This document shows, in pieces, positions 10,728 to 63,689 of a DNA stretch of 64,000 nucleotides. Positions within the stretch are counted from its first letter, which is position 1; the number at the start of each line of letters is the position of its first letter. The stretch lies in the NCBI GenBank assembly GCA_029945375.1, contig CM057065.1, positions 310,001 to 374,000 of the forward strand, given 5' to 3'. The notes beneath the pieces were generated by a model, which worked only from the letters and a program-made list of their open reading frames with translations, was not told where the DNA came from and did not search any database. The position numbers and the translations under genes are program-made. This DNA comes from Agaricus subrufescens (Eukaryota; Basidiomycota; Agaricomycetes; Agaricales; Agaricaceae).

Positions 10728-12522
10728 CTAGACTGGAGCGTTTGGACCAGGGCAACGAGGAACATCTGTATCAATCCAAAGCCTTGGTACGGATGCTTTT
10801 GTTGAACGTTGAGTAGAGGCACGAATCTCGGGTCCTAGAAATAGCTGTGAAGGACGGATGGTATCTCCGGGGTCCAGCATTCTCTTGAAAGGGTAGATGT
10901 CCGGGACATTATTCACTTCAGTTCCTGAGATGGATGTCAATCAGTCTGGCTGAAATAATTTAGAGGTTGGTCGATTTGCACGCACGGTGATAATGTTGCA
11001 CTAGGAGATTCTTTAACCGCCTCAGATTAGTGGTGAGATCTGAAGGATTGAGTCGGACTCGGTGAGGCATTTCTACTGACATATGGTCGGATGGTCGCGT
11101 CAACCTGTCAGCTTCAAGTTGATCTACGATTCTTGGGCATCGCGGACGCTTCCCAACTTCAATCGACCAACATGTTCCTATCAGTTCACGAAACTTGTTA
11201 TTGAGATCTTCGTCCCCATGCAGTCTGACCATATCTAGCTGTGCTGGTAATTCTCCACGCATCAATTTAAACATCACTTGGTAGTCGGAGCATTTTGCAA
11301 ACGGTTCCATTCCAGTTAGAATCTAATGATTAACAGACGATTATTTGAGTAAATTGTCTGTGTTTGAATGTGAGATGACAATCAACTGACCTCGTAACAT
11401 AAACACCCAAAGGCCCACACATCACTCTCACAAGTCGGCTGTCCTTCTTCCTCAAAAAGCTCTGGAGAAGTCCAACGCGTCGTATTGCCAGAAGGCCCAC
11501 TTGCGGTTCTTGTAACTCCTAGCGTTCCATTTGTTATGATAGATGATAGTCCGAAATCCGCTAGGCAAGCATGTTGACGGTCGTCGATCAAGATATTGCG
11601 CTATGTCAGCTGGTGAGTGGTGCAGGTATGTAATGTAGTAGTTAGACCTTACTCCTTTAAGGTCCCCATGAACAATATTTTGCTCATGAAGATACTGGAG
11701 CCCCTTCGCGATATCGTCAATCTTGACAAGCGCTATTAGAAATTCATGCAATATCATAGAAATGGGCTCACTAGCGGCTTGCGAGGAACATTGGGCTCCT
11801 TCCTTAGAAACTCCACGATGTCGCCATTTTCCATCCAGGGAGACACAAGGCAGATACGTTTCTCCCAATAGAAAATTCCATAAAATGGTACAACATTAGG
11901 ATGGTCCAGCTGATTCCAAACAATAGCCTCACGGGCATGAGCCTAATACACATCAGTACGGCAGCGTTCGCATCAAGGACAGACGACCTCATACCTTCAG
12001 CAGTTGCTTTATGTCCGAATCTTGATACAACCGTGCAACCTTTAAGCAAAGGAGCTGACGTTGGTAGCGTCCTTGATAGATATCACCAAACCCTCCTCCG
12101 CTTCTGAGAGACATATCATGAATGTCCTTTAGCACATAACAGGTAGGATATAACATTGATGCTTCACAGAGTCTTCGTAGGATGATCAGAATGTACTTGA
12201 GTAGCCCAGGCTCTATTGACTTTCGCATTTCTGGATCCGAAACAAACTAGTGACTGGGTTCATATGATATTCTTTACAAGTGCTTACGAAGATCACTCAC
12301 ATTGTTCAGACTATCGATGCATGACTGGGCACGGTCACCCCTCAATTCCAGCAGTGCTTTCCTCTTTTCTTGATTCCACAAGATGACGGAGAGCCACTAC
12401 ACGCGTATTTCCCTCGTCAGAGGATAAACGTTCATGTATGAGGAGCTCACCTGCTTCGTTTGAGACGACTCGGACAGTAATATTTGCTCCAGGTGATGGG
12501 ATTTCTCTTGCGTTTCGTCCAT
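10728..12522 (-). CDS. Stand-alone TKL-type protein kinase A
   Basis: Eight exons on the minus strand: 12451-12522, 12301-12396, 11995-12246, 11772-11942, 11653-11721, 11391-11600, 10986-11322 and 10728-10924, giving 467 residues with all phases closing. Exon 1 encodes a short leader (MDETQEK...SQTKQ) and exon 2 the conserved helical segment containing LLELRGDRAQ. The kinase domain has a good glycine loop (GGGFGDIYQG), the beta-3 Lys (LCLKVAR), HGDLKGRN, ADFGLS, SPE and SDVWAFG, so it should be active. HGD in place of HRD is usual in this mushroom family. The tail after the C-lobe is about 65 residues with no recognised domain. Exon sizes 96-252-171-69-210-337 are shared with B, C, D and E almost exactly, which makes A the simplest member and probably the ancestral form. 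Substrates are unknown. Confidence 0.9.
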
Positions 12523-31822: not shown

Positions 31823-34502
31823 TCAAGGAGCTGGGTAGGAGCCTGGCATTGCTCCTGAAGGATCGACATCCTCAACGTTATTTACTCCAGTACCTGAGAT
31901 GGATAACATCAGTCTAGTTGAAATCAGTTAGAGAGGTTGATCGATTTTCACATACGTTGATAATCTTGTGAAAGGAGATCCTTCAACTGCCTCAGATTAG
32001 TGGTGGGGTCTGAGGGATTGAGCCAGACCCGATGAGGCATTTCTATTGAAACACGCTCGAATGGTCGCGTCAAACTGTCAGCTTCAAGTTGATCTACGAT
32101 TGTTGGGCATTGCGGACGTTTCCCAACTTCAATTGACCAACATATTCCTATCAAATCCCGAAACTTGTTATTGAGATATTCGTCCTCATGTAGTCTGACC
32201 GTGTCCAGCTGTGCTGGTAATTCTCCACGCATCAACTTATACGTCGCTTGGTAGTCCGAGCATTTCTCAAACGGTTCCATTCCGGTTAAAATCTAATGGT
32301 TGACACACGATCACCCGAGTAAATTGTCTGTGTTTGAACGGGATATGACTATCAGCTGACCTCGTAACATAAACACCCAAAGGCCCACACATCACTCCCA
32401 CAAGTCGGACGTCCTTCTGCCTCAAAAAGTTCTGGAGAAGTCCAACGCGTCGTATTGCCGGAAGGCCCGCTTGTGGATCTTGTAATTCCGAGCGTTCCGT
32501 TTGTTATGATAGAACATAGTCCGAAATCCGCGAGGCAAGCACGTTGACGGTCGTCGATCAAGACATTGCGCTATACCAGCTGTTGAGTGGTGCAGGTACG
32601 TGATGTAATATGTAGACCCTACCCCTTTAAGGTCTCCATGAACAATATTTTGCTCATGAAGATACTGAAGCCCTTTTGCGATATCGTCAATCTTAACAAG
32701 CGCTATTAGGAAGTCATGCAATATCATAGAAATGAGCTCACTAGTGGCTTGCGAGAAATATTGTGTTTCTTTAAAAACTGCACGATATCGCCATTTTCCA
32801 TCCAGGGAGACACAAGGCAGATACGTTGCTCCCAATAAAAAATTCCATAAAACGGCACAACATTCAGATGATCCAGCTGATTCCAAACAATAGCCTCGCG
32901 GGCAAGGGCCTGATAGACATCAGTACGGTAGCGTTTGCATCAAGGACAGATGACCTCATACCTTCAGCAGCTGCTTTATGTCCGAATCTTCATATACCCG
33001 TGCAACCTTTAAGCAAAGGAGTTGACGCTTGTAGCGTCCTTGATAGATATCACCAAACCCTCCTCCGCGTCTGAGAGATATATCATGAATGTCCTTTAGC
33101 ACATAACAGGTGGGATATAACATTGACGCTTCGCAGAGTCTTTGCAGAATGATCAGGGTGTGCTTGAGTAGCCCAGGCTCTGTTGACTTTCGAATTTCTG
33201 GACCCGAAACAAGCTGGTGACAGGAATTATATGATATTCGCTACAAAGTATTTGCGACGATCACTCACATTGTTCAAAGTATCAATGCATGACTGGGCAC
33301 GATCACCCCTTAATTCGAGTAGTGCTTCCCTCTTTTCTTGATCCAACAAGATGGCGGAGAGCCGCTACATGCATGTTTATTTTGTCAGAAGGTAAACGCT
33401 CATATACGAGGAGCTTACCTGCTTCGTTTGAGACAACTCGGAAGGGGATGCTTGTTCCGAGGGACAGTCTATGGGCGTTACGTCCTGGTACGTATCCTTA
33501 ACTCCGGTGAGCCTGTCTTTGATGTTCTCTTGACACTCTACATCAATGATGAGCTCCTCTCGACCACATAATAGGTTGCAGGAGAATGCATCTATGAGGT
33601 GAGCCTCAGGTCGACTGAAGATGAGCCAATGAAGTGACAGGTCCGGGTATGAGCGGATAGTGTTGGTAATCATTTCAACAATCTCCAGCTGAGCATCCTC
33701 CCCTTCACACTCGTCAAGGCCATCCAGTATGATGGCAATGGGTCTCCGTCTCTGGGGACACCGGCGCTCAAGGTTCGCAAATGGCTCAGCAATGAGTTTA
33801 CGGAATTGGATGGGCGGAGCCTTCCGTAGTAGGAGTGGAGTTTCAGCGAGTCGGTGCCCAACAAGGTTACGGTATTCAGGATCGTTCTCAGCGAGCTGGT
33901 ATACGAGCGTTGGAACAACGGTTTCGAACTTGTTCCTATTAGCTACTCTCGAAAAGAAGTACGACCCTCCAAGGTTCCCATCCTCCTCGCAGGCATCTCC
34001 AAATGATTGTGCGACTGCAGACTTCCCTGTACCGGCAGAGCCACGGACCCAGAGCATTTTTTGTTCTTCATGCTCATTAGAAAGCCATATAGCAAGTCTC
34101 TCCCTGATCTTCAATTGCGTATCAGGGTGACACCTTGGTGGTGGATATCGAGCACTGGAATCTTTTGTGGCATCGAGGCATGTATATGGTTCCAATGATT
34201 CGAAAACTGTCAGGACAGATTCAATGCCAGGCATTCTTGTACGACATGAGGGAGTACACACCTATATGCTTATGTGATACGCAATTGTTTACATGGAATC
34301 CATCAACCATAAAGGTATTGGTGATTGAGAAGTTTTGTGCACCGGAAAACAAACCCAGACCACCTTCATGGTCGGACGTCGGGTGGGTAAACTGACCGAG
34401 ACTTGTCTCGTTATTGGAAGGGGTCGGCTCATCGGAAGGGATCGACGGAGAGCGGGGTCGTCGTTTCAGGAACTTCATCAACTTCTCTGCATGGTGAGCC
34501 AT
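31823..34502 (-). CDS. NACHT ATPase - TKL kinase fusion protein B
   Basis: Nine exons on the minus strand: 34262-34502, 33419-34206, 33269-33364, 32962-33213, 32742-32909, 32623-32691, 32361-32570, 31956-32292 and 31823-31893, 743 residues, no stops, all phases closing. The N-terminus carries the FSGAQNFSI motif that begins many mushroom NLR-type proteins. Next come YPPPRCHP, a Walker A motif (GSAGTGKSA, about residues 136-144), Walker B (IAIILDGLDEC, about 237-247) and SRPE. The NACHT part sits in one 788-nt exon ending SELSQTKQ, exactly where kinase exon 1 ends in A, D and E. From there it is the same helical module and an intact kinase: GGGFGDIYQG, LCLKVAR, HGDLKGRN, ADFGL. NACHT is an NTP-driven oligomerisation switch, so oligomerisation-activated kinase signalling is plausible but unproven. 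Confidence 0.88.
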
Positions 34503-35129
34503 GGAGGACTCCGGCGTTGCGATTCAAATAGACCCAGAGGCAACAAGTTGTGAGGGAAAGAAAGGACGATGGCGTACGTTACCTTACATGAACTAAATTC
34601 TCAGTCACAGCGCTTATTGTCACCCCTGGTAACCTGTTGATTTCGTTACTAGCTACTTATGTCTCCTCCGGGCGCCGGGTACGCGTTCCCAATGATAAAT
34701 ATATAGGACTATGGCCATGTGAATGGGGGAGTGGAAAGGCCTGGAGGGGTAGTCGTCTCCAGGTCTCCAGGCGGTAAGAGCGAGGTTGGAACAGCATCGG
34801 GTCGCCCAGATGTGTACAACCTACACCTAACTGTGCCAATAGTCTCATCTAATGATGATGTATGGGATAGGGTGGGTGGTTTTAAAGGAATCGCAAGCAG
34901 GTAGCGGTGCCGTCCACTCAGCACACGGAGGAGAGAGACGAAGATTATATCAAGGATCACTATGTTATTATGACTCCATCTTTCACACGGGCTGCCCTTC
35001 CGAGACAACACACCGCGCTCGTTCCTTGCACGGTGTTCCATTTATGATGTTATGCATTAAAGTAATGACTCTTCACCTAGAAGATCCTTGCAGTGGTGCT
35101 ATCGCGGGTGACCATGGTGGCACCGATAC
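34503..35129. other. Upstream region of B and downstream region of C
   Basis: 34560-34660 closely matches 37670-37765 upstream of C (ACATGAAC...TTCTCAGTCACAG...CTTATTGTCA), so B and C were duplicated with their promoters. The remainder up to 35040 has no gene. Confidence 0.6.
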
Positions 35130-35215
35130 TCAAAAATTCGATGTGCTACCACAAGTTGTGTTTAGCTGACCAAGCTGGCGGTGGCAAGCTCGGGATAAGC
35201 CGGCATAATCATAGT
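35050..35215. repeat. Repeat R1, flanking the truncated 3' end of C
   Basis: Matches 37770-37945 in the same orientation (shared AAAGTAATGACT, GAAGATCCTTGCAGT, GGCAAGCTCGG, AAGCCGGC). The coding homology of gene C stops where this repeat begins, at about 35210. Confidence 0.65.
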
Positions 35216-37627
35216 TCCCAACTTCAATCGACCAACATATTCTTATCAGATCCCGAAACTTATTATCGAGATCCTCGTTCTCATGTAGTCTGACCGTGTC
35301 CAGCTGTGCTGGCAATTCTCCACGCATCAATTTAAGCACCACTTGGCGGTCGGAGCATTTCGCAAATGGTTCCTTTCCAGTTAGAATCTGACGGTTGACA
35401 CATGATCATCCGAGTAGATTGTCTGTGTATGAATGTGAGATGACAACCAGCTGACCTCGTAACATAAACACCCAAATGCCCACACATCACTCTCACAAGT
35501 CGGGCGCCCTTCTTCCTCAAAGAGTTCTGGGGAAGCCCAGCGTGTCGTATTGCCAGAAGGCTCGCCGGCAGTTCTTGTAACTCTTAGTGTTCCATTTATT
35601 GTGATAGTTGATAGTCCGAAATCCGCTAGGCAAGCACGTTGACGGTCATCAATCAAGACATTGCGCTACATCAGTTGTTGAGTGGTGTAGGTGCGTGATG
35701 TACCATTTAGACCCTTACCCCTTTAAGGTCTCCATGAACAATATTTTGCTCATGAAGATACTGAAGCCCCTTCGCGATATCGTCAATCTTGACAAGTGCT
35801 ATTAGGAAGTCATGCTATATCATAGAAATGAACTCACTAGTGGCTTGCGAAGGACATTGGGCCACTGCCTTAGAAACTCCACTATATCGCTATTTTCCAT
35901 CCAGGGAGACACAAGGCAAATACGTTGCTCCCAATAAAAAATCCCATAAAACGGCACGACATTCGGATGATCGAGCTGATTCCAAACGATGGCTTCACGG
36001 GCATGGGCCTAAAAGGTGTTATCACGACAGCGTTCGTATCAAGGATGGATGACCTCATACCTTCAGCAGTTGCTTTATGTCTGAATCTTGATACAACCGT
36101 GCAACCTTTAAGCAAAGGAGCTGACGCTTGTAGCGCCCTTGGTATATATCACCAAACCCTCCTCCACTTCTGAGAGATATGTCACGAATGTCCTTCAGCA
36201 CGTAACAGGTAGGATATAACATTGATGCTTCACAGAGCCTTCGTAAAATGATCAGAATGTACTTGAGCAGCCCAGTCTCTGTTGACCTTCGAATTTCCGG
36301 ATTCAAAACAAGCTGGTGACAGGAATTATATGATATTCGCTATAAAGTATCTGTGACAACCACTCACATTGTTCAGACTATCAATACATAACTGGGCATG
36401 ATCACCCCTTAATTTGAGCAGTGCTTTCCTCTTTCCTTGGTCCGACAAGATGGTGGAGAGCCACTACATGCATGTTTCTCTCATCAGAATATAAGCGTTT
36501 ATGTATGAGGAGCTTACCTGCTTTGTTTGAGACAACTCGGAAGGTGATATTGGTTCCGGGGGACAGTCCGTGGGCGTTACGTCTTGGTACGTATCCTCAA
36601 CTCTGGCCAGCCTGCCCTTGACGTTCTCTTGACACTCCACATCAATGATGAGCTCCTCTTGATCACATAACATATTACAGGAGAATGCATCCTTGAGGTG
36701 AGCCTCAGGTCGACTGAAGATGAGCCAACGAAGTGGCAGGTCTGGGTATGAGCGGACAGTGTGAGTGATCATTTCGATGATCTCCAGCTGAGTATCCTCC
36801 CCTTCGCACTCGTCAAGGCCATCCAGTATGACGACAATAGGTCTTCGAGGATGCTGGTGTTGAAGGGCCGCAAATGGCTCAGCAATGAGCCTACGGATTT
36901 GGACAGGCAGAGACGTTCGCAGTAGAAGTGGGCTTTCAGCGAGTTTTGGCCCAACTAGGTGACGATATTCAGGGACATTCCCGGCGAGCTGGTATACGAG
37001 CATTGGAACAACGGTTTTGAACTTGTTCCTATTAGCTACCCTCGAGAAAAAATATGACCCTCCAAAATTCCCTTCCTCCTGGCAGGAGTCTCCAAATGAC
37101 TGCGCGACCGCGGATTTCCCTGTTCCAGCGGATACATGAACCCAGAACATCTTTTGTTCCTCATGCTCATTAGAGAGCCATCCCGCAAGTTTCTCCCTGA
37201 TCTTCAATCGCGTTTGAGGGTGACACTTAGGCGGTGGATATCGAGCGCTGGCATCCTTTGTGGCATCAAGGCATGTATACGGCTCCAAAAATTCGAAAAC
37301 TGTCAGAACAAGATTTGACACTAAGCCTCCATGTACAACGCGAGGTAGTACGCACCTGCCTGGCTATTTGATATGACATCGTTTATATAATTGACTTTGA
37401 GTTCATTGATAAACTGGGCGCCATGAACGTTGAAGTCATCATTTGCATTGGAAGAAATCTCTAGATATCAAATAAGCACGTTTACAGTAGGATATTGGGT
37501 AGTTAAACCAACTGAGACCTGTCTTCTCACCGGAAGGGATCAACGGAGATCGGGATCGTTGTGTCAAAAGCCTCATCCACCTCCTTGCACGGTCAATCAT
37601 GGATGGGGCTAGGGAAGACTCTGGCAT
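35130..37627 (-). CDS. NACHT ATPase - TKL kinase fusion protein C, C-terminally truncated
   Basis: Nine minus-strand exons: 37531-37627, 37356-37460, 36518-37299, 36368-36463, 36061-36312, 35838-36008, 35719-35787, 35456-35665 and 35130-35387, 679 residues, open throughout. It has one more intron in the leader than B. An alternative start is the ATG at 37600, which aligns with that of B. NACHT motifs are SAGTGKSAVAQ and ILDGLDEC. The kinase part keeps HGDLKGRN and ADFGLS. After CWSIEVG the homology to B ends, and about 30 unrelated residues read from repeat R1 close the frame. The last helices of the kinase C-lobe and the usual tail are missing, so kinase folding may be impaired. C lies head-to-tail upstream of B with a related promoter, so the pair is a tandem duplication. 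Confidence 0.82.
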
Positions 37628-43539: not shown

Positions 43540-46322
43540 TTAATCGGCCCTGACGTCTAGGAGTAACTCTTCGAGACATTTTACGACATTTTCCGCCCCT
43601 TCCTTCACCATCTGCTTCTGGTGATCCACCACCTTTGGCAGCCACTGAGTTTGGAATCGATCCGGGTCCCACTTTTTAATGTGATCTATTATCCTCTCCC
43701 GAATACTAATCGATTCAGGTGTCTCGGAAAAATCGTCACGAACCAGGTATGCCCGAACTTCGTCCACAGTAATTTCCTCAGCACTTTCAGGAAACCAACG
43801 TATTGGCCAGGGAAAATATTTCCAATAAAGCCACTTGTGGCTTAGTAGCCACTCCCACTGATCGTCGTGATACAAATGCGCCTGGAAGAAAAATTCATGA
43901 TGCTTCTGCCTTACTGGTAGGTGTCTACGTGATGACTTGTCAGTCGGTTCCTCGGTATCTTTTGGTTCTGCCAGGGTAGATGATGGGCCTAAACAATTGG
44001 CATCTGGGTCAATGAGAGGTGGACGCTGACTTCTCAACGGTACGATAGCCCGTGACGTGGCTTCGGCATGATGCCTCTTCGACGTCCCGGATTCGGGGCT
44101 CCAGGCGATAGAGCCATACGGACTGGAATATGTCCTTGGTAAACTGTAACTATTTCGGTTTGTTGCTAAATCAGCTCTAGTCATAGAAGACTGGAAACTG
44201 TGAGAAATTGAAAATTTTGCCTCACCTTTGATGTTCTCTTCGGCGTGAAAGGCGTTTTTGTTCGTCCTTGAACCGCTCATCCCTCTTTCTTCCTAGCAGC
44301 ATTGCATGTCTCTCCTTTGTCGCCATTTTTGCCCACGCGCTCTTTCGTTTTCGTTCTGCTTCCTTTGCAATTAGATTTCTTTTTTCTCGCTCATCCATCA
44401 TCAGCTGAACGTGCAGTTGTTCTTGTTTAAACCGCTCGACTCTCTCCGCTTCTCTTGCGATGCTAAGTCTCTCTTGCTCTGCATATAACTTCTGCCATGT
44501 GTCCGGTTCTTCATTCTTTTTCTGGTGTTCTTCCACAAGTGTTTCTTTTCCCTCTGACATTTCACGCTTGTATTGCTCTCCCAGTGTCTGGTCTTTAATA
44601 TGTTAGTATGTGAACGAGTCTAGTAACTTTGACAAAATTGAGAGTTACCTTCTAGTTCCAGCGTACTTAAAGGGTCCTCCACATACGCAACATCGTCCAC
44701 TCCATTTTCTGTAAAATTCAACGTTCAAAAATGTTTCTAGTTGTTGCGAGATTGAACGGACTGTGATAAAGTTGTTCCAAGAGATCTCTGAATTGGCCCA
44801 AAATATCAGAGTTTCCAGGAGCATGGAGCCAGGATTGATCAGGGATAATCGATGGATGACCTTCGGGTCGTTGGGAATTTTTTTCTACCTCAAGTTCTTG
44901 TAGGATTTCGGTATATTGCGGGCGTTGCTCAACTTCGATCGACCAACACCTTCCTATCAGATTACGAAGCCGTTTGTCAAGATCCTCGTTTTGATGTAAC
45001 CTTATATTATCCAACCGCGCGGGTAGTTGTCCTCTCAATAACTTTGCAATTACACTGATATCCGAACATCCTGCAAACGGTTTGAACCCGGTAAAAACCT
45101 GAAAACAGGATGGTCTAAGTGAATTGGCAGTACCTGCGTGAGCGACTCGAGCTGACCTCGTAACATAGACAGCCAAAAGCCCACACATCACTTTCTCGAG
45201 TCGGGCGTGCATAATCATCCAAAAGTTCCGGAGAAGCCCAACGTGTTGTGTGACCAGAGGTACCAATTGTGGTCCTTGCAAAACTCAATGTCTCGTTTGT
45301 TGTAATAGTAGATAGACCGAAGTCTGCTAGACAAGCTCGGTGACGGTTGTCTATTAAGACATTGCGCTACAAAGACCACTTAAGTAGTACATTGATGAAA
45401 CAATCTGTGTGAAAGCCTTACACCTTTGAGGTCTCCGTGAACAATATTCTGCGAATGAAGGTACTGAAGGCCATTAGCGATATCATGAACCTAGGCGAGG
45501 GGTTTTTAGGGATGCATGAAGCAAAACAGGGTAAGAAACTAACCAATGGCTCACGAGGGGCATCGTTAACTCTCTGTAAATAATCCACGATATCACCGTT
45601 TTCCATCCAGGGCGATACAAGGCATATGCGCTCCTTGCGTTCCAAATAGAAAATTCCATAAAAAGGCACGATATTGGGATGGTCAAGTTGACTCCAAAGA
45701 ATCGCTTCCCTCGCATGAGCCTAGTAAAAAAAGTTCAGTTGAATGACAAACATAAGCATGATGGATGAACACGTACCTTCAGGAGCTGCGATATGTTCGA
45801 ATCCTGATATATCCGTACCACTTTTAAACAAAGAAGCTGCTCCTTAAAGCGCCCTTGACAGATATCACAAAAACCTCCTCCGCTTTTGGGAGTTATATCA
45901 CGGATATCACTTAGAACATAACATGTGGGATATAGCGTTGATACTTCGCAGAGTTTGCGCAAAATGATGACAGAATGCTTGAGTAACCATGGCTCTGCCG
46001 ACCTCCGGATTTCGGGGTGTAAAACAAACTGATGATTGGGGGTAAGTCATTATAGAACGCGCAAACTTTGGTCTGTTTTGGTTACTTACATAGTTCAAGC
46101 CATCAATCCACGACTGAGCGTGATCACCCCTCAATTTGAGGAGTGCTTTCCTCTTTGTTTGGTCCCGCAAAATGCCTGATAGCTGCTGCACGCGACGAAG
46201 TCTATCGTCAGAAGATAACCACATGTATTCTTTTATCAGCACACCTGCTTCATTTGGGACGACTCGGATGACGATACTTCCCCTAAGAGCGTGTGGGCCA
46301 CTGAAGGTTCATCGACATCCAT
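43540..46322 (-). CDS. TKL kinase D fused to a coiled-coil and a WDPDRF-motif C-terminal domain
   Basis: Ten minus-strand exons: 46245-46322, 46090-46185, 45777-46028, 45544-45720, 45422-45490, 45157-45366, 44762-45098, 44649-44708, 44226-44592 and 43540-44176, about 760 residues. The first seven match the exon sizes of A and E. The kinase half is intact (GGGFCDICQG, LCLKVVR, HGDLKGRN, ADFGLS). A 60-nt exon then joins it to a long charged coiled-coil (YAEQERLSIAREAERVERF). The C-terminal domain has WEWLLSHKWLYWKYFPWP and IKKWDPDRFQTQWLPKV. That ending recalls the WHPDKF-type tails of several fungal proteins and of NFKBIL1-like proteins. The last intron (44177-44225, 49 nt) uses the acceptor in GACTAG; a nearer acceptor would give only 28 nt. 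If that intron is wrong, the kinase would end at 44222 and the rest would be a second gene. Confidence 0.75.
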
Positions 46323-47461: not shown

Positions 47462-49046
47462 TCTACATGATGCAGGCGTTAATGACTGTTCAATTTACAG
47501 TCGCAAGAATGATAGGATAAACCCACATGATTCTGATATTGTGTCGGGGTTTGAGAACGTTGTGGGATGTCCTGGGTCTAATGCAAGCGATGAGCACAGG
47601 GATCGTTGTTGTGAGATGAGGAACTAACAGCTGTCTGGTTGTTGGTAGGTTCTTGGTTCAGTTAGGCAGTTTAGGGTACATCTTATAGTCCACCGGTCTA
47701 TAACATGAGTCAATAATTCCTGAACCTAGAGGGGATAAGTGTGGTAAGGATTTATTTTGTGGACGCCGTAAGTTGGAGCTGAAAGACTTGAAACAGTTCT
47801 TAGAGCCTCATCATGACTACGCTTTTGCATATGAGAGGCAGTGTTCTACAACGTTCAAGAGGAGCCCCCTGGTGATGGTGCTTCTGGCGTGAAATGTGGC
47901 TGTTCCATTGATCGTTAACAGACAAATGAGTTGTGATAATGAAATATAAGCCATGTTAGTGATCTCGAGGTTCTTCGAAAGTAGATATCATCAATTCAAA
48001 GCACAGTTTCAACTATGCAGGCATAGGAAAAGGTCCTGTCGACTTGGCAGTGCCTTCTTGAATGGAGCGCTTAACGTTGGGTGAGTGTATCAGCGCCAAA
48101 TCTCACCTTCTAGGATAAGATCAATATAAACTCCGGAGTCTACGACTGCAGCGTAATACAATCTATACTTCTTATGCCAGAGAGTCACAAGGCCACCAAG
48201 GACAATTCTTTCACCTTTGCTCGACTCGAACCCTATTTGTCCACAAGTGGTAAAAATCTAAATTACCTGATCACGGAACACACAGGATTGTGATTGATGT
48301 CACTAATATATCGCCATACATAATTCAAAATAAAACGTGTAGACAACGTTGAAGATCGAATCAATAGGCCTGAAGAATTGCAATCATCGTCTCGGGTAGC
48401 CCAGGTTACGATTACGTGCGAAACATTGGATTGGCATCCTTTACCACTGTCATGATTGATGTGGTTTGTGACATTTCATGCCCCAACTCAACCGAGCGCG
48501 GAACCCAGGCTTTATGTTTTTCGTATGTACAGGTAAGAGGCTAACCCAGGCCGATACACATCGGTTCATGTACGTCTTTTCCCAACTATCTCGGCCAGTC
48601 CGCTGGTCTTCAATATTGTGTATGTGAAAGCTGTAGGTTTATGGTACCAAGGCTATCCTCTGGTATACTGATTTTGCATAGATCACGTTGGTTGACCTCG
48701 CAGAATTCCGGTACAGCAATTCTATAGTGATGACCAAGATTGTTCCAGCCCCTTCTTGATTAATAAGCAACTAGGAGAAACAAAGAACTACGGTGATAGA
48801 ACTAATACTAAGAACACGGGCTAAGAAGATAAAACACAAATATTCTTTCTTACTTATTTTTTGTTGATGGAGGGGGGACAGGGGGACAGAAAGGATGATA
48901 GTGACTGTTGGAGAAAAAAAACAAAACAAAGATGGTCCATGCATCTGCCACCGTCATCGTCATTGAAGCACCGTCTCTCTCAATACCAACGAACAAGAAT
49001 TAAATTGAAAAAAGAGTAAATCACAAATGGAGACGGAGCAAGCGTA
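47462..49046. other. Intergenic region with no gene seen
   Basis: About 1.6 kb between the small secreted protein and the 3' end of kinase E. No exon, RNA gene or strong repeat recognised. Confidence 0.5.
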
Positions 49047-52000
49047 TCATACAGGATTGTAGCTCCCTATGAATAGATAAAGATGTCATAAAATGAGGCA
49101 CAACTGGAAGAGAAAGATTTATATACGTACAAATCCTAGCTCGGCGATCCCCACTTCCAGTTGCAAAAATACTCCCTACTGGGCTGAAATCGGTCGAAAC
49201 GACTACCGACCCGAATAAGGAAAAAATATTCTAGATAAAACAAAAAAAAAAAAACGGAACAAAACGTACCGGAGCTCTGATGACCTTGGAGTGTACATTG
49301 CACAGTCGCATTCTTTGCGTCCCAGAGTTGTACAACATGATCTTTAGATCCCGAGACCACCCACTGCCCATCATGTGAAACCGCTACACTCAATACATAG
49401 TCCTTGTAGCCGACGTCAGAAATGATCGAAATAACAATAAAAGTACGTACGTACCTTGTGACCAGTAAAGTTCATCATACGAGCACTCTTTTTGGCTTTC
49501 ACCCTACCTACCGTCACAATTGCTCCACTGGGTCTCCTACCAACACCTCTACCAAGGGCACTGACATTCCAATACTTCATCGTCTTATCCAAACTTCCAC
49601 TCACGAGCCCCTTCCCATCAGGCATGAAAGCGACATCATAGACGCTATCGTGATGCCCTCGTAATCTCTCCACCAACATGCCGGTAGCAACATCCCAAAT
49701 CCGCACAACAGTATCCAGACTACCAGCCGCAACATATTGTCCATTCGGGCTTATGGCTACCGATGTCACGCCTGCATCGTTATTTGAAGAGTCGTGATCG
49801 TTGATGGTCAGGACCTTCGACGTTCCGTCGACCATATCCCAAATTCGAGCAGTTTCATCACCAGAACCGGAGACAAGAAGGCGTCCATCAGTTGAGAAGT
49901 CCAAGGAGTATACTTCTTGTTGATGACCGTCAATCACGCTACGAATGCATTTCGTAGCTATATCCCAGACCTGTCATTCTATTGAGAGTTGTCGACTGGA
50001 TAGTTAACACTAAGATCCTTGCCCGAATAAGTTTATCTTCAGCCCCTGTGACTAAGGACTCGCCATCGGGGCTGAAACACACACTCCGAATGTACAGATG
50101 ATCTGTTTTCGTGGTATCATTATGCACAAACACACTAGTAATTGTGTTACCGGGAGGAATGGTCTGACAGATTATGATCGCTACTATACCATGTTTTCTG
50201 TCCCGTCTTACTATCATAAATTTGAGCAGTCCTGTTGCATCCCGTCGCGAGATATTTACCATCAGCTGAGAATCGGACGCAGGTAACAATACTGGGGTAA
50301 TTGATTAGAACAGGCAGGCTGTGTATATTAATGACAAACCTTTCATGTATCAAGGAGTGCATGAGAGAGACGTCGAGTTGCTTTTCGACGTTAGGGTTGG
50401 ATAAGACGAACCAATCAGCATTTAACTTCTTCAGGTCGGGGCCCGCGGTATTAAAAGGAAAATTGTCGAAAGAACCTCCCACAAGAGGGTTAATAACCTC
50501 TATCGCCAGGCCAGTTGCGTAAAGCTCCCGTAGAATGTGGTTGCAGTAATTGATATAATTGGTATCGCTTGAATTATGCAGTGTAAATGGCTTTAGAGGA
50601 TTAGTTGAACCACGCTGGGACAGTTGTCCGAAACTGTCTGATTCAAGATATTTTACGGTTTCTGTTGCGCATGGGCGTTGCCCGACTTCACCTGACCAGC
50701 ACCTTGTTATCAACTCACGAAACCTATTATCGAGGCGTTCATCTGAATGTAGTCTGACTTCATCAAGCCGCGCTGGTAATTCTCCTCTCATCAGTTTGTA
50801 AATCACTTGATGATCTCTTGATCCCATAAAGGGTTGCATTCCGCTCAGAACCTTGTATGTGGCGAAAGATATTCTGGGTAAATTATCAATATTTTAGGAG
50901 GGTCGATGACTGACCTCGTAACATAGACAGCCGAAGGCCCACATATCACTCCCCCGGGTCAGGCGCGCGTGATCATCAAAAAGCTCTGGAGAAGCCCAAC
51001 GTGTCGTATGTCCAACAACAGTGCTTGTGGTACTAGTGAATCCAAGTGTTCCATTCGTCACGATAGTCGATAGTCCAAAATCTGCTAAGCAAGCATTGTG
51101 ACCGTAATCAATTAAAACGTTGCGCTAGACAAGTCATTGAGCACCGGAGATAAGAGAAGCGACATGTAGGCCTTACGCCTTTGATATCTCCATGCACAAT
51201 GTTTTGGTCATGAAGATATTGAAGTCCTTTAGCGATATCGTCAATCTGGGGGAGTACTATTAGGAAGGCGTGCAACATGGCGGAACCAACCAAGAACTTC
51301 ACCAGTGGCTTGCGATGAGCATCAGGTTTCTTTTTCAAATACTCCACAACATCACCATTCTCCATCCAGGGCGACACGAGACAGATACGCTTCTCCCAAT
51401 AAAAAATTCCATAAAAGGGTACAACATTGGGATGGTTGAGCTGGTTCCAAAGAATGGCTTCGCGAGCATGGGCCTAATGAATGTCAGTAGGCTGTCGCTC
51501 ACCGTTATGACAGATGACCTCGTGCCTTCAATAATTGTTTTATGTCCGAATCTTCATATATCCGTGGAACTTTTAAGCATAGGAGCTGATGTTTCGAGCG
51601 ACCTTGATAGACATCACCAAACCCTCCCCCGCTTTTGAGAGACATATCACTGATGTCGCTTAGCGCAAAGCAGGTGGGATACAACGATGATACCTCGCAA
51701 ATTTTGCGTAAAATAAATACAGTGTTTTTGAGCAGGCCAGGCTCCGCCGACCTCTGAATTTCTGGATTTGAAACAAACTGGTGGATTTTCAATAATAAAT
51801 CTTTAAAATGTAGTATTTGCGTCGATCACTCACACAGTTCAGACCGTCGATCCACACTTGGGCTTGATCACCCTTCAACTCCAGCAGTTTTTTTCTCATT
51901 ACTTGATCCTGAGCGATGGTTGAAAGCCACTACGGATCTTTTGTTAGAATATAAACATTTCAATACCATGCAGGATAGGTATACCTGCTTCATATGAGAC

Positions 52001-52062
52001 AACTCAGATGGCGGCATTCGCTCCAGAGGGTGGGGCTCTCCCGATGGTCTATCGACGTCCAT
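49047..52062 (-). CDS. TKL kinase - Tup1 WD40 propeller fusion protein E
   Basis: Thirteen minus-strand exons: 51985-52062, 51834-51929, 51526-51777, 51303-51473, 51177-51245, 50915-51124, 50340-50851, 50190-50291, 50023-50134, 49455-49970, 49270-49402, 49131-49202 and 49047-49066, 780 residues, no stops, every phase closing. Residues 1-58 are the leader and helical module. The kinase is intact: [10 protein letters not shown], Lys about 127, HGDIKGRN with Asp about 219, ADFGLS. Inside the single exon 50340-50851 the C-lobe ([20 protein letters not shown]) runs into Tup1 sequence at about residue 412-432 (PDLKK...DWF.L.NP.V.KQLDVSL). A complete Tup1-type propeller follows ([17 protein letters not shown]) to WSYNPV. 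Two introns appear to use GC donors (before 51525 and 50022). It has no Tup1 N-terminal tetramerisation helix. It could redirect a kinase to Tup1 partners. Confidence 0.9.
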
Positions 52063-54881: not shown

Positions 54882-57469
54882 ATGTCCGCGAGCACAATCT
54901 ACAACGTATTTCTCCGTCTTTTTCTCCCTGACCGTTCCCAGGCTAATCCGCAGCCAGCATCGCAGCCTCCAGCCCACCGGCCCCCCCGCGCAGGGACAGA
55001 GCCAACCGCACAGCCATGCTCGCCTAAACGAGGCATTCGAAACTATCAGAGCCGAATTCGACTCGGCTCTCACAGAAGCAAACGTAGTCAGGAACCAGAA
55101 AGATGAGATTGAAGGAAAAGGTCAGTCCCGCCCCTCCAAATGTCCTTTTTTTGTCTAAAAAAAAAGTCGCGTACTTGTGCAGTAGTCCAGCAGGTCAACG
55201 AGTTGAACATCATTCGACAATCCCTCTATGATTTAGAAGCTCAGCACAACAAAGTCAGGCAGCAATTTGAGGATGAGCTGGGCAGGCTTCGGAGTGAGCT
55301 TTTGACCACTAGACAGCAATTGGCTGCTGCCACGAGCGGCGCCGGTGGCCCCCCGCCTGCCGGTCCAGGTATAAGCGCAGGCCCCGGCGCACCCAGCCAG
55401 ATTGGCCCAGGGGGTGCGCTCGTCGGTGGCCCGCCTTATCCTCCAGCCGGGGAACCACCCTATGGCAGAGACTATCCACGGGAGAGGCCTATCGAGCGCG
55501 AGCCCCGGATCGGAGATAGGCCGGGTCTCGGGCCGTTAGCAGATAGAGGCCTGTCCATGGCTGATCGTGAAAGAGAGAGGGACAGAATGGATAGAGAGCG
55601 TGAGCGAGAGAGGGATAGAGAAAGGGAAAGGATGGACAGGGATAGGGACAGAGTTCCTGATGCCAGGGACCCTAAGAGGATGAAGAATGATAGAATCAAA
55701 AGTGACAGACCTGGTTAGTTTTGTGAATCAATATCAATGAACTCTGCCCGTTTAACATTTTCATTATAACTTAGACCATTTCAGCCCATCTTTGGGTACC
55801 TTGGGCGTTGGACCGTCCAGTGGTGGACCCACCCCCAAACTTCCCCCACCGCCGGGTCCTGGCGCCTACGGTGGCCCCACACCGTCCGGCCCTGCAGATT
55901 CCGTCCCGACGCACACTGGGCCTGGTTTGCACACAGGACCCGGCGGCCCACCCCCTCTTTCTGGTCCGTCCTCTGGTCATCCCACTACTGGCCCGGGAGT
56001 AGGGGCTATTGGTCCCCCCGTGGGCGCCAATCAAGGCTTCCCGGATGATCTCGATATTCATACCGTGGATCCCGCCTTGAAGAAAGAAGGAACTGATTGG
56101 TTTGCCATTTTCAACCCGAAAGTCAAGAGACAGCTCGACGTCTCTCTCGTGCACACCTTGATGCATGAAAGGTCTGTCGCCGAACATTTTCGATTATTGT
56201 TTGTCCGTGCTGATCGATCACTTATAGTGTTGTTTGTTGCGTCAGATTTTCAGCTGATGGCAAATATCTCGCGACAGGCTGCAATAGGACTGCTCAAATC
56301 TACGATACCAAGACGGGTCAGAAGACATGGTATGTCAGCAGTCGTAATCTACCGGATCGTTCCTTTTGATAACACAATTTTTAGTGTGCTTGTCGATGAG
56401 GGTGCCGGGAAATCGGGAGATCTGTACATTCGAAGTGTTTGTTTCAGTCCCGATGGCAAATTCCTAGCAACAGGAGCCGAAGATAAACAAATCCGGGTAA
56501 GAATAGTATTGTTACCTACCCTGTCAACAACTCTCAATACGATGACAGATCTGGGATATAGCTAAGAAACGCATCCGTAACGTGTTTGACGGCCATCAAC
56601 AAGAAATCTACTCCTTGGACTTTTCAACTGATGGTCGTCTGATTGTTTCCGGTTCTGGTGATAAAACTGCTCGGATTTGGGATATGGTCGACGGAACGTC
56701 GAAAGTCCTAACCATCAACGATCACGACTCTTTAAATAACGATGCAGGCGTGACATCGGTGGCTATAAGCCCAAATGGACAATATGTAGCCGCTGGTAGT
56801 CTGGATACTGTTGTGCGGATTTGGGATGTTGCTACTGGAATGTTGGTGGAGAGATTGCGGGGGCATCGGGATAGTGTTTACAGTGTGGCCTTCACGCCTG
56901 ATGGGAAGGGGCTTGTGAGTGGAAGTTTGGATAAGACGTTGAAGTATTGGGATGTCAGTGCTCTTGGTGGCGGTGCTGGCGGAGGACCTAGTGGAGCACT
57001 CGTGAAGAGAGGTAAGGATGGGAAGCGAGACGATAAAGGGAGTCCCTGTACAATGAATTTCACTGGTCACAAAGTATGTGCTCTTATCATTATTTCGATC
57101 GTTTCTGACGTCGACTTGAAGGACTATGTATTGAGTGTGGCGGTTTCACATGATGGACAGTGGGTGGTTTCGGGATCTAAAGATCGTGGCGTACAATTTT
57201 GGGATGCGAAGAATGCGATCGTGCAATGTATGCTCCAAGGTCACAAGAACTCAGGTATGTTTTGTTCCGTTCTCTGTTTAGTCTAAAAATAAGTTTTTCT
57301 TTCCTTTCCTCGGAAGTTATTTCCATCGATTTGAGTCCGGCAGGGAGTATTTTGGCTACTGGGAGTGGGGATTGGCAAGCGAGAATTTGTACGTATACGA
57401 ATTTTCTAACTTAGGCCTCACTTTCTGACCTCTTTCTTTCCTTTAATAGGGAGCTACAGTCCAGTATGA
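54882..57469 (+). CDS. TUP1: Transcriptional co-repressor Tup1
   Basis: Ten exons: 54882-54905, 54958-55120, 55183-55713, 55775-56171, 56228-56329, 56385-56496, 56549-57073, 57122-57254, 57317-57388 and 57450-57469, 692 residues, all phases closing. The start is MSASTIYN; the acceptor chosen for exon 2 gives HRSLQPTG, which fits known mushroom Tup1 N-termini. An N-terminal coiled-coil ([37 protein letters not shown]) is the tetramerisation/Ssn6-binding helix. A Gly/Pro-rich linker and an Arg/Glu/Asp-rich low-complexity stretch follow. The C-terminal half from about residue 370 is the seven-blade WD40 propeller that binds repressors and histones ([35 protein letters not shown]), ending WSYSPV. 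It is the evident donor of the WD40 parts of E and of the three copies downstream. Confidence 0.95.
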
Positions 57470-58625: not shown

Positions 58626-59699
58626 ATGTCAGGCAAGCCTTCACCACTTCCAGCAAATCGTAGCCCGTCTTGGTTTTCTCGCTCTAAGAATCGTGTTTCT
58701 TCTGTCCTCTCACCTGCGTCTGCTCGTCGTTCATGGCGTCCACTTACCCCTGAGGACAACACATCAAGGCTGGACACTACGCCTGCTGATCCTGCCCATG
58801 TTTACGCATTACCTGCCTCTGCATCACCTAGCCTCCAACCCTCCGACGGTGCTCATCACTTAAGAGACTCTTCTTTCGATCAACCATGCACCTCCTTTGA
58901 AACTGCTCGGATTTGGGATATGATCGATGATCGACGGAACGTCAAAGGTCCCAACCGTCAATGATTATGATTCGGTAAATGATGGAGTAACACCAGTGGC
59001 TGTGAGCCCGAGCGGGCAATGTGTTGCTGTTGGTCATCTGGATACCGTTGTACAGTTTTGGGATATTACTACTGGTACGTTGCTGGAGAACCTGATAGAG
59101 CGTAAGGATTTTGTTTATGGCGTCGCTTTAATCCTGACGGAAGGGGGCTCGTGAGTGGAAGTTTGGATAACACATTGAAGTATTGGGACGTTAGTACTCT
59201 TGGTCTGGCGGTCGTTCAAAGTTTGTCGTGGCGCATGCTACAAAGGGTAAGGATGTAAAGAAGGATGATAAAGGATGTCCTTGTGCAATGAATTCGATCG
59301 GCCATAAAGTGAGATTCTCTCTCCTCCCACTTCTTTCTTTTTTTTGCTGATTATCGGTAAAAAGACTTTGTGTTAGTGTATCAACTTCAAATGATGGGCA
59401 GTGGATTGTATCTGGGCCTAAAGATCGGAGTATACACTTTTGGGATGCCAGGAATGCGATTGTGCAATGTAAGGTCCAGGGTCACAGCAATGCTGGTAGG
59501 TTTCCTGTATCTCGCCCGCTTGGTTCCCTTCTCAGGCAAAAAATTTGCGGTGGTTATTTCATTTGTTATGTGTCTAGTAGGAAACCATTTGGCAACTGGA
59601 AGCGTGGATTAGCGAGCAAGGATTTGTAAGTATATGAATATTGAGTTATACTTGTTTCTGATCTTGTTCGTTTCTGTAGGGAGTTAAGGTCCAGTATGA
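58626..59699 (+). pseudogene. Relic F: NLR-type leader joined to Tup1 WD40 repeats
   Basis: Begins with an ATG encoding MSGKPSPL and a Ser/Pro-rich leader very similar to that of relic G. After SSFDQPCTSFE it passes directly, without a NACHT domain, into TARIWDMIDD, the start of a late Tup1 blade. The frame is then broken: NDGVTPVAVSPSGQCVAV is in another phase, and [13 protein letters not shown] sequence follows a further shift. The last copied pieces resemble the final Tup1 exons, including the terminal WSY exon region near 59678-59699. I read it as a copy of a NACHT-Tup1 gene that lost its middle by deletion. Confidence 0.7.
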
Positions 59700-60145: not shown

Positions 60146-63100
60146 ATGTCAGGCAAGCCCCCACCCCTTTCGAAATACCGCACCCCGTCTTGGATTTCTC
60201 GCTTTAAGAATCGTGTTCCTTCTACGCTGTCACCTAACTCTAATCGTCGCTTACGGCATACACCTGAACCCGAGTCTGCGGCTGCTGATCCTGCCCATGT
60301 ACACTCTATTGTTGACACCTTACCTGCCCCTCCGACACCTAGCCTTCAGGCTCCCGTCAATGCTCATTATTCAAGTGCCTCTTCCGTGTCTCCTCCATTT
60401 CAACCCCCCATGGCAACATACAGTCTCATCCAAATTCGGCTCAATGGCGAACAGTGAGTATTTCTCTCAGGCACCTGAACTTTCTGTAGCCAACAAATTC
60501 CTCACTGTCGACAGTATCGAAATTCGGGCATATTCAGTGGTTCTTCAGAATTTTCTATAACAGGCGTTAACACATTTATTGACCACGTCGGTCCGGACAA
60601 TTGTAAGAAATACTGTGTCATGAGTCATCTATACTAACTATTTTGTTCATTATTTTTGGAGAAGCTCCTACAGGAGACAATACGTGGAGCAGAATTTGAC
60701 TCTTCTGATTGCGACCCGCCACCACGCTGTCATCCGGGGACTCGCCCTTCAATTATACAACGATGCCTCGATTTCATTAACAACTTGGATGACAAGGAAA
60801 AGACGCGTTGGGTAGTTGGCCCTCCTGGAGTTGGAAAGTCAGCGGTAATGCAGATTGTCGCTGAACAGACCGCTGATAGTTTCATTTTTGCATCGATATT
60901 TTTTTCCGTCAACGAACGTCAAAACGGATCAAAAACGTTCACGACTATCGCATATCAGATGGCTGTCAAGCGTAAACCGTACCGTCCATTTCTTCAGGAT
61001 GAAATCAGCAGGGATCCTGACCCTCCTCGAAAAGCGCTCTCAACACAGTTCGACAAGTTCGTAGTTGAACCATTCGTGCACCAGCACCTATTCGATCATA
61101 CTCAACAGTTCCTCGTACTTATTGATGGACTGGACGAGTGCAATGATCCCCTTACCCAACGAAATCTGCTCGACCTGATTTCGAATTTTTGCATTTCATA
61201 CCGTACCTCGCCGGTGGTGTGGATTGTGACCAGTCGACCAGAACCCCACATTGCTTTATTCTTCAGTAAGGCCGAGGTCAAACCTGCGTATACAAAGAAA
61301 ATATTGTGATAGATTCTGAAGAGGGGCGTCGAGATGTTGAAGCCTATCTCCGCAATGAGCTGGGAAAAGTTCAATCCGCCTCCATTACAATGCAACGCAA
61401 GGGGTACTGGGCTTCCAAACTCGATTTACTCAAAGTCGCTACAGCCTCGGGAGGGCTGTTCGCCTATGCTTCGACGGTTGTCAAGTATATTGACGACCTT
61501 GTCTACGGATCTCCAACATCTCAGCTTCGCGATGTACTCATGGCCATCGACGGGACCCATAATATGATAGGTTGAAGAATCACCCTTCGCCCAACTCGGC
61601 GCCTTATATGACCGGATACTCTGCAAAGTTCCTGATCATACAAATCACATTGGGAGTGCCTCTCACAAACACGTTGGAATGTCGAAGCATGCCCTTCCTG
61701 TTTGCGACGTTTTTATCGTCATCTCATAGACGATCCAGACCAAACAGCTACCGTTTTCTTTGATTAGACTGGATTATGTTATGTAGAAGTCGCTTTTGTT
61801 GACCCCGAAGATGGAGTTTCACAGTAGAGGTACCGATTCCTGCATTCTGGAATTCCTTCAAGTTCTGCGGTTTCGGTCAGTCCCGGAACTATAGATCTTG
61901 GTTTACTTACAGGACCAAGAGGTCTACCTGCTTTCACTGAGCCACTTCCTCTCGCTGATCCTCCTTCCGGTGGTCGTCCATACCTGAGTCACTCCACTTG
62001 GGGCACAACTGCTATTAGTCTTCCTGCGGACGACAATCAAGCTTTCCCAGACGACGTTAATATTCGTACCATGGACCCCGCCTTGAAGAAGGAAGGCACT
62101 GATTGGTTCGCCATTTTTAACCCTAAAGTCAAAAGACAGCTCGACATCTCTCCCGTGCATACCTTGTTGCATGACAGGTCAGTCATCGAATACTGTTTAT
62201 TGCTGCTTGTCCGTTCTGATCAATCACCTTAGTGTTGTTTGCTGTGTCCGATTTTCACCTGATGGTAAATATCTCGCGACAGGGTGCAACCGGACTGCCC
62301 AAGTCTATGATACTAAGACTGGTGAGAAGACGTGGTACGTCAGCAGTCCCAAAGTGTCGGGTCATACTTCTTCCTTATACCATCGCCAGCGTGTTTGTCG
62401 ATGAGGCCGCAGGGCAATTGGATCTTTATATACGAAGCTTGTGTTTCAGTCCTGATAGTAGATTCCTTGCAACGGCCGCTGAAGACGCACAAATTCGGGT
62501 AAGGATCATTTTAGAGTGTCGTGCCCTTTCGAAACGCTCATAATGGTACGATAAAGATCTGGGATATCACCAAAAATCGCATCCGCAATGTGCTCCATGG
62601 TCATGAACAGGAAGTCTGTGCGTTAGATTTTTCAAGCGATGGACACTTCCTTGTTTCTTGTTCCGGTGATAAAACTGCTCAGATTTGGGATATGATCGAC
62701 GGAACGTCCAAGGTCCTAACCATCAACAATTATCATTCTGTAAATGATAATGTGGGGGCGACATCAGTGGCTGTAAATCCGAACGGGCAATATGTTGCTG
62801 TTGATCATCTGGATTCCATCGTACGGGTTTGGGATATCGCTACTGGTACATTGGTGGAGAATCTGAGAGGGCACAAAGATTCTATTTATAGCGTGGCTTT
62901 TACCCCTGATCATGGAAGGGGGCTTGTGAGTGGAAGTTTGGATAACACATTGAAATATTGGGATGTTAGTGCTCTTGGTGATGGTCGTCGTTTGGAGGGT
63001 GGTGTGGCGCTTCCGACAAGCGGTAAGGATGGAAAGAGGGATTGTAAAGGAAGTCCTTGTACAATGAATTTGATCGGCCATAAAGTGAGAACCTCTCTCC

Positions 63101-63575
63101 TCCTATTTCTTTCTTTTCTTGCTGATTGGCGGTAAAAGAACTTTGTGTTAAGCGTAACAGCCTCACAAAGTGGGCAGTGGATTGTTTCGGGGTCTAAAGA
63201 CCGTAGCATACACTTTTGGGATGCCAATAATGCGATTGTGCAATGCAAGGTCCAGGGTCACCGCAATTCTGGTAGGTTTCCTGTGTCTCGCCTGCTTGGT
63301 TCCCTTCTCAGGCAAAAAAATTGCGGTAATTATTTCAGTTGCTATGAGTCCAGTAGGAAACTTTTTGGCAACTGGAAGCGGGGATTGGCGGGCAAGGATT
63401 TGTACGTATATGCATATTGACTTGCGCTTTATCTCTGATCTTTTCTTTTTCTGTAGGGAGTTATGGTTCAGTATGCTACGTTGAGCCTTTTCGCCTTGAC
63501 ATTATTCATATCATATTTATTCTTGTTTTGCGGCCTTGGAGAGGTTACTTTACTATAACCAGGACGGAACATTGA
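60146..63575 (+). pseudogene. Relic G: NLR-type leader - NACHT - Tup1 WD40 propeller
   Basis: The leader exon MSGKPPPLSKYRTPSW is followed, after an intron, by IFSGSSEFSITGVNTF, the usual NLR start motif. The NACHT part (60659-61300) has DPPPRCHPGTR, Walker A GPPGVGKSAVMQ, Walker B FLVLIDGLDEC and TSRPEPH. The frame breaks near 61290 (before IDSEEGRRDVEAYL) and again near 61575 (before PFAQLGALYDRIL). From about 61914 a nearly complete Tup1 linker and propeller follows: [57 protein letters not shown] and SGDWRARI. The splice sites largely match those of TUP1. The TUP1 stop TGA is TGC here, so translation would continue to 63575. The NACHT half is probably dead; the WD40 half looks better preserved. 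Confidence 0.72.
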
Positions 63576-63689
63576 TCACAATGTAACTGATAACACTTCT
63601 TCTTCACCCCTCCGAGGCTCAACACTTCTAGCAGTGGTTCGTTTTTGAATATGCCTTGCAATCTATCTCTGTTCTAGTCCAAATATAGT

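Follow-up and report, generated by a model that had tools for sequence, protein, structure and literature searches.

In the corepressor Tup1, the propeller is the face bound by repressors, and the N-terminus forms a tetramer and binds Ssn6/Cyc8. Non-RD kinases are often tied to innate immunity in both plants and animals. According to the accessible parts of the literature, integrated decoys are established in plants and only proposed in fungi. In the available text on wheat kinase fusion proteins, the extra domain is proposed to act as a bait under a decoy model (PMC10260397). Kinase domains fused to NLRs of Sordariales are presented as candidate decoys in the sections accessible to us (PMC12258605), and PKinase is listed, in the available part of another survey, among the domains of fungal NLRs (PMC4986451). 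An oomycete effector acts, according to the text available, on TOPLESS, a corepressor that the authors of that study relate to Groucho/Tup1 (PMC7446885). Our literature search found no description of a kinase-Tup1 or NACHT-Tup1 protein in the portions of the sources available, and nothing on TKL kinomes with WD40 in Agaricomycetes.

We describe here a gene of Agaricus subrufescens, gene E, that joins a protein kinase to the Tup1 propeller. It lies in a window of 64,000 nucleotides (bases 310001-374000 of contig C9) of a genome searched over 44.65 Mb in 44 contigs; within the window, no Rfam family (at gathering scores) and no tRNA was found. The model of the preliminary description was reproduced in its coordinates, its 13 exons, its 780 residues and its single exon shared by kinase and Tup1 sequences (Table 1). 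The frame runs without internal stop from the ATG at 52062 to the TGA at 49047, on the minus strand, a detail missing from that description. The correct acceptor of intron 8 was set in the final model by the alignment with TUP1.

The kinase domain covers residues 109-359 (Pfam Pkinase, 8.2e-45; PK_Tyr_Ser-Thr, 3.2e-41) and contains a G-loop from residue 107, Lys 127 within LCLK, HGD at 217-219, DFG from 237, followed by SPE and CW...RP. All the hallmarks of a protein kinase (G-loop, catalytic Lys, Glu, HxD, DFG and an APE-type motif) are present, with HGD replacing HRD and SPE replacing APE, and the kinase is of the non-RD type. Its best relatives among solved structures are tyrosine kinases (Src-Abl ancestor, 5.1e-28), a likeness that does not settle its assignment to the TKL or FslK group. 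The second half of the protein matches WD40 (5.8e-67) in seven stretches, as in a seven-bladed Tup1-type propeller; 287 of 376 aligned residues (76%) are identical to native TUP1, and the identity to yeast Tup1 is 49%. The match to yeast Tup1 (1ERJ, E 3.9e-89) forms a single stretch that takes up positions 18-367 of the query (368 residues); three chains rank higher for this half, two of which owe their rank to the addition of many WD40 stretches. The claims that the catalytic motifs are complete and that all Tup1 blades are kept are thus borne out, as is the reported absence of the tetramerisation helix: in a genome-wide search with three candidates scored, for which TUP1 itself was the sole positive control, Tup_N gave no match in gene E and two matches in one gene only, TUP1 (window 55021-55304). 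No NACHT or NB-ARC domain was found in gene E among the best 25 of 46 Pfam families, and two NLR queries matched the window at genes B and C and at the NACHT-Tup1 arrangement T62 only.

Table 1. Features of the window (positions are those of the window)
Feature	Position	Strand	Remarks
Gene A, kinase paralogue without Tup1	10999..12520	-	5′ end approximate
Gene B, NACHT + kinase	31969..34213	-	One open frame; upstream exons and last codons left out of span
Gene C, NACHT-kinase	35074..37306	-	Altered kinase tail
Gene D, kinase paralogue without Tup1 or NACHT	44775..46322	-	
Gene E	49047..52062	-	13 exons, 780 aa; kinase + Tup1 propeller
Tup1-derived segment of gene E	48967..50500	-	Inverted copy of TUP1 at about 56.0-57.55 kb, with introns and 3′ flank
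Gene E intron 9, GC donor	49971..50022	-	CGG/GCAAGG...ACAG; GT in TUP1 and T62
Gene E exon 7	50340..50851	-	Single 512-nt open exon: kinase C-lobe, kinase tail, Tup1 pre-propeller
Kinase/Tup1 junction	50490..50530	-	Approximate; kinase-like tail LRELYATG, then Tup1-like pre-propeller NPLVGG...
Kinase half of gene E	50528..52062	-	Residues 1-400, encoded by exons 1-6 and the first part of exon 7
Gene E intron 3, GC donor	51474..51525	-	AAG/GCACGA...TTAG; GT in paralogues A-D
Native TUP1	54882..57469	+	10 exons, 692 aa, Tup_N + propeller; source of copies
Degenerate second copy	58626..59695	+	NLR-type N-terminus running into broken Tup1 propeller
T62, NACHT-Tup1 arrangement	60146..63500	+	Two or more frame shifts in NACHT half, followed by open propeller, GT-AG introns, stop lost

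The Tup1 half of gene E derives from the nearby TUP1 gene. Positions 48967-50418 are 79.85% identical in DNA to the opposite strand at 57550-56093 (1479 aligned positions, introns and 3′ flank counted); the introns of this half align one for one with those of TUP1, and the 3′ flank is 70% identical. The homology begins at about TUP1 residue 311, beyond the tetramerisation helix, and includes hardly any of the linker. By eye, the stops of paralogues B, A and D lie 3, 9 and 15 residues past the point that matches the junction in gene E, so the TUP1 copy was joined just before the old stop, leaving both domains whole. A kinase gene of the local array thus received in its tail an inverted copy of the 3′ part of TUP1, which comprises the last stretch of the linker, the propeller and the 3′ flank. 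The dS between gene E and TUP1 is 0.43-0.56, and that between T62 and either of them 0.90-1.09. These values suggest that T62 split from TUP1 before gene E did, and that the Tup1 sequence was captured on two separate occasions, unless the closeness of gene E and TUP1, which are 90-92% identical in the middle of the propeller, is due to conversion between them. A gene between E and TUP1 (window 52734-54290, plus strand) resembles by eye a dehydratase of the enolase superfamily and is single copy in a self-comparison of the window; a small cysteine-rich open frame with a start that looks like a signal peptide by eye is located between D and E (window 47494-47255, minus strand).

Over the codons compared, the kinases of genes A to D are 65-84% identical to one another and 67-69% identical to that of gene E. 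Genes B and C form a duplicated 2.1-kb unit (85% DNA identity) in which a NACHT domain lies upstream of the kinase in the same open frame, with no intron between them (34213-33488 in B, 37306-36587 in C). The composite nature of gene B is visible in the Pfam matches of its 644-residue frame (NPHP3_N, 5.8e-24; NACHT, 1.6e-6; PK_Tyr_Ser-Thr, 9.4e-43). With 150 of 808 candidates scored, most of the closest relatives of its NACHT domain lie between 185 and 264 kb of the same contig (75-83% identity), one is on contig C8 (79%), and gene C stands at 79%. Two further, more distant kinase relatives are located at the edge of the window (99-1206 and 2332-3538, plus strand). The NACHT repertoire of the genome is large, with at least 150 matches for each of two queries (810 and 808 candidates). 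Clusters of NLR genes that score equally on two or three contigs (C1:1.44-1.66 Mb, C2:0.57-0.80 Mb and C6:2.24-2.31 Mb) are either recent segmental copies or unresolved haplotypes.

The Tup1 propeller is itself joined to a NACHT gene downstream of TUP1. The first part of T62 (60146-61640) encodes an NLR-type N-terminus and a NACHT domain, 66% identical to the locus L037, and is interrupted between 61.28 and 61.58 kb, where the frame shifts two or more times. On the same strand, the propeller (62044-63500) is open through all its exons, with the stop codon lost. Since its NACHT half is broken, no NACHT-Tup1 chain is made from T62 at present. A further propeller fragment starts at 63687 on the plus strand (about 63.7 kb). 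All three pairings, kinase-Tup1, NACHT-kinase and NACHT-Tup1, are therefore represented within 32 kb.

In the genome as a whole, the Tup1 half, used for the window and genome searches as a draft query that included 10 residues of intron 8 and missed the last 30 residues, gave 18 matches; those with at least 45% identity are all on contig C9 (the copies in the window and a gene at 174 kb), and the other seven, at 33-39%, resemble WD40 proteins in general. The gene at 174 kb is a second, divergent Tup1-like gene (L029:3090-4950, C9:173.6-175.5 kb) that possesses by eye its own N-terminal helix region and is absent from the Tup_N matches. The kinase half gave 92 matches (112 of 196 candidates scored), and outside the window none is close to a match of the Tup1 half. 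The best kinase match outside contig C9 (L066, C7:2379 kb) is a frame without Tup1 or NACHT, with a separate NACHT about 1 kb downstream. Among the matches listed, gene E is the only site of the genome where both parts occur together, which does not prove their absence elsewhere.

Our leading explanation is that gene E may encode an immune-type kinase carrying an integrated Tup1 bait; this reading, as a whole statement, is tentative, and we regard it as possible rather than probable. The product would be one protein in which a predicted catalytically competent non-RD kinase is followed by a Tup1 propeller without tetramerisation helix, and such a protein could bind Tup1 partners while being unable to build the corepressor. 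The propeller would be offered to a binder or modifier of Tup1, which might come from a mycoparasite or a virus or be a non-self variant, and the kinase would convert this contact into a signal. As in kinase fusion proteins, an apparently active kinase carries a copy of a host protein that also exists independently. The idea of a decoy comes from the neighbouring genes, because B and C combine the same kinase with NACHT, and T62 combines NACHT with the Tup1 propeller; these arrangements put the propeller at the place of the sensor of an NLR and the kinase at the place of its signalling domain. The presence of NACHT-kinase and NACHT-Tup1 combinations in the same window makes a decoy function of gene E somewhat more likely. 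Nevertheless, the fused copies are all located near TUP1 in a duplicating array, and such joins can arise by chance.

This last point leads to the alternative that gene E is a by-product: a duplication in an unstable array would have attached a fragment of TUP1 to a kinase gene, and the product would have been tolerated, perhaps once used, and would now be decaying. The neighbouring copies of TUP1, which are broken or stand behind a broken NACHT half, are in line with this possibility, but the 13 exons of gene E have stayed free of stops and of net frame-shifting indels at a dS of about 0.5. Between gene E and TUP1, the 1,056 aligned exon nucleotides contain no net frame-shifting indel and a single in-frame deletion of 9 nucleotides, whereas the 318 intron nucleotides contain 10 gaps with lengths that are not multiples of three; these counts depend on the aligner, as one alignment printed the 9-nt deletion as 2+7, and intron 7 contributes four of the 10 gaps. 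If the exons were neutral, the part of the divergence that belongs to gene E would lead one to expect 24.6 frame-shifting gaps in them (P about 2e-11).

Codon analyses were performed on three-sequence star trees with a custom script rather than a published program, leaving out gapped codons (7 of 363 for T62, 2 to 11 of 400 in the kinase rows). On the gene E branch, the omega of the Tup1 half is 0.47 (2ΔlnL 7.11 against 1), compared with 0.016 for TUP1 and 0.237 for T62, and an omega equal to that of TUP1 fits less well (2ΔlnL 16.4). The far faster evolution of this half relative to TUP1 is a point against the leading reading, and the raised omega is what would be expected of a by-product. Within the Tup1 half, omega is 0.30 for the last 183 codons (2ΔlnL 7.05) and 0.57 for the first 180 codons alone (2ΔlnL 2.60, not significant), and once the 90 best-conserved codons are removed it is 0.54, with a weak case against 1 (2ΔlnL 4.23). 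For the kinase half, three trios were formed of gene E, gene D and one further paralogue; the omega of gene E is 0.24 with B, 0.29 with C and 0.25 with A (2ΔlnL 26.7, 12.7 and 19.6, respectively). The first 362 codons were used, beyond which stops interrupt the row of gene C at codons 371 and 398 (gene E register). An omega below 1 in both halves argues against a simple by-product. The Tup1-derived part contains no Met before residue 456, at the propeller's edge, and the start of Tup1 itself was not copied; the constraint on this half is therefore explained most simply by translation together with the kinase. Our reading of these patterns is that for much of its past gene E has probably been translated and kept under constraint, though a looser one than that on TUP1. 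With no net frame-shifting indel and an omega below 1 in both halves, the fusion is more than a chance join, though a relaxed one.

The splice sites bear on the same alternative. Gene E has two introns with GC donors at sites where its relatives have GT: GTATGA (A, B and C) or GTACGT (D) at the site of intron 3, and GTAAGA (TUP1) or GTAAGG (T62) at the site of intron 9. This corresponds to 2 of 12 introns in gene E against none of 39 in the relatives (hypergeometric P 0.052), the latter being taken from models fitted by homology (six each for A to D, nine for TUP1, six for T62). Retention of intron 3 would give a product of 148 residues, or 184 if the next GT were used, and retention of intron 9 a product of 561 residues. 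In the available text of one study, citing Kupfer 2004, GC-AG introns amount to about 1% of fungal introns (PMC7407476), which makes two in 12 unusual. Since such introns do occur in fungi, those of gene E can be spliced, which weakens their value as a sign of decay; we consider these donors as usable, though probably weak, and the integrity of gene E would depend on both. The term "intact" used in the preliminary description stands for the open joined frame, with kinase and Tup1 sequences in one exon, and is otherwise conditional on these two introns. Overall, we consider it unlikely that gene E is a by-product of this kind.

We also find it improbable that gene E is a client-directed kinase or a dominant-negative form of Tup1, in which the propeller would bring the kinase to DNA-bound repressors, or occupy them without the tetramer, and so tune ordinary repression. 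Such a function would agree with the seven WD40 stretches, with the absence of the tetramerisation helix and with the conservation of 159 of the 190 positions at which TUP1 is identical to yeast Tup1 (gene E has altered 31 of them, by 30 substitutions and one deletion; the reverse direction gives 6). It would also agree with seven of nine positions that we take to be contact sites of yeast Tup1, nine being left of eleven candidate positions after 542 and 676, which did not carry the expected residue, had been dropped; our literature search found no published list of Tup1 contact residues. The two others, kept by TUP1, differ in gene E (348, C to T; 673, N to S), and this explanation does not account for the Tup1 propeller joined to a NACHT gene or for the kinase-NACHT fusion in B and C.

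Finally, an artefact of assembly or annotation, with the two halves non-contiguous or belonging to two genes, is very improbable, because the join lies inside one open exon where kinase tail and Tup1 part share a frame with no stop between them, and the copy is about 20% different from TUP1 and thus not a misplaced piece of it, although a second, possible start at Met 456 would yield a slightly clipped propeller alone. The reality of the kinase-Tup1 gene fusion is well supported by its structure, by a source gene about 5.5 kb away and by the signs of selection on both halves.

Returning to gene E as an immune-type kinase with a Tup1 bait, a broader proposal, which we consider doubtful, is that Tup1 could be a guarded hub of fungal non-self defence, its propeller having been captured at least twice, next to a NACHT receptor gene in one case and into a kinase gene in the other, with NACHT, kinase and propeller acting as the switch, signal and bait of one pathway. 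If this were true, gene E would represent a type of receptor kinase not described in fungi. The joining of the Tup1 propeller to both a NACHT gene and a kinase gene suggests that Tup1 might be targeted by fungal parasites, by viruses or in non-self recognition; gene E provides a concrete protein with which to test Tup1 as a target.

The known systems each resemble this locus in part. Gene E shares with the Groucho/TLE/Tup1 corepressors, including native TUP1 and yeast Tup1 (1ERJ), the whole C-terminal propeller and the pre-propeller segment, but these corepressors have a Tup_N helix and a linker, whereas gene E has no helix, hardly any linker and a kinase at its N-terminus. Like the expanded TKL/FslK kinases of Agaricomycetes (PMC2838846, PMC3937382), as described in the available parts of these papers, it has a full catalytic domain, and it belongs to a local array of related kinases; the word "WD40" is absent from the main text of both papers, as far as that text is accessible. 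In their available descriptions, fungal NLRs with an extra kinase (PMC12258605) and NACHT-WD40 NLRs (PMC4986451) recall the NACHT and kinase of B and C and the NACHT and WD40 propeller of T62, but gene E itself has no NACHT, and its propeller was captured from a single conserved gene. The accessible account of the kinase fusion proteins Sr43, Lr9, Pm4 and others (PMC10260397) describes, as in gene E, one apparently active kinase with an unrelated domain, the extra domain being the bait in the model; those proteins are from plants and have a resistance phenotype that was shown, whereas gene E is fungal and carries a corepressor propeller. The capture of domains by immune-type genes is thus a known principle, and what is new at this locus, with respect to the literature available to us, is that the captured protein is a general corepressor and that it was captured in a kinase.
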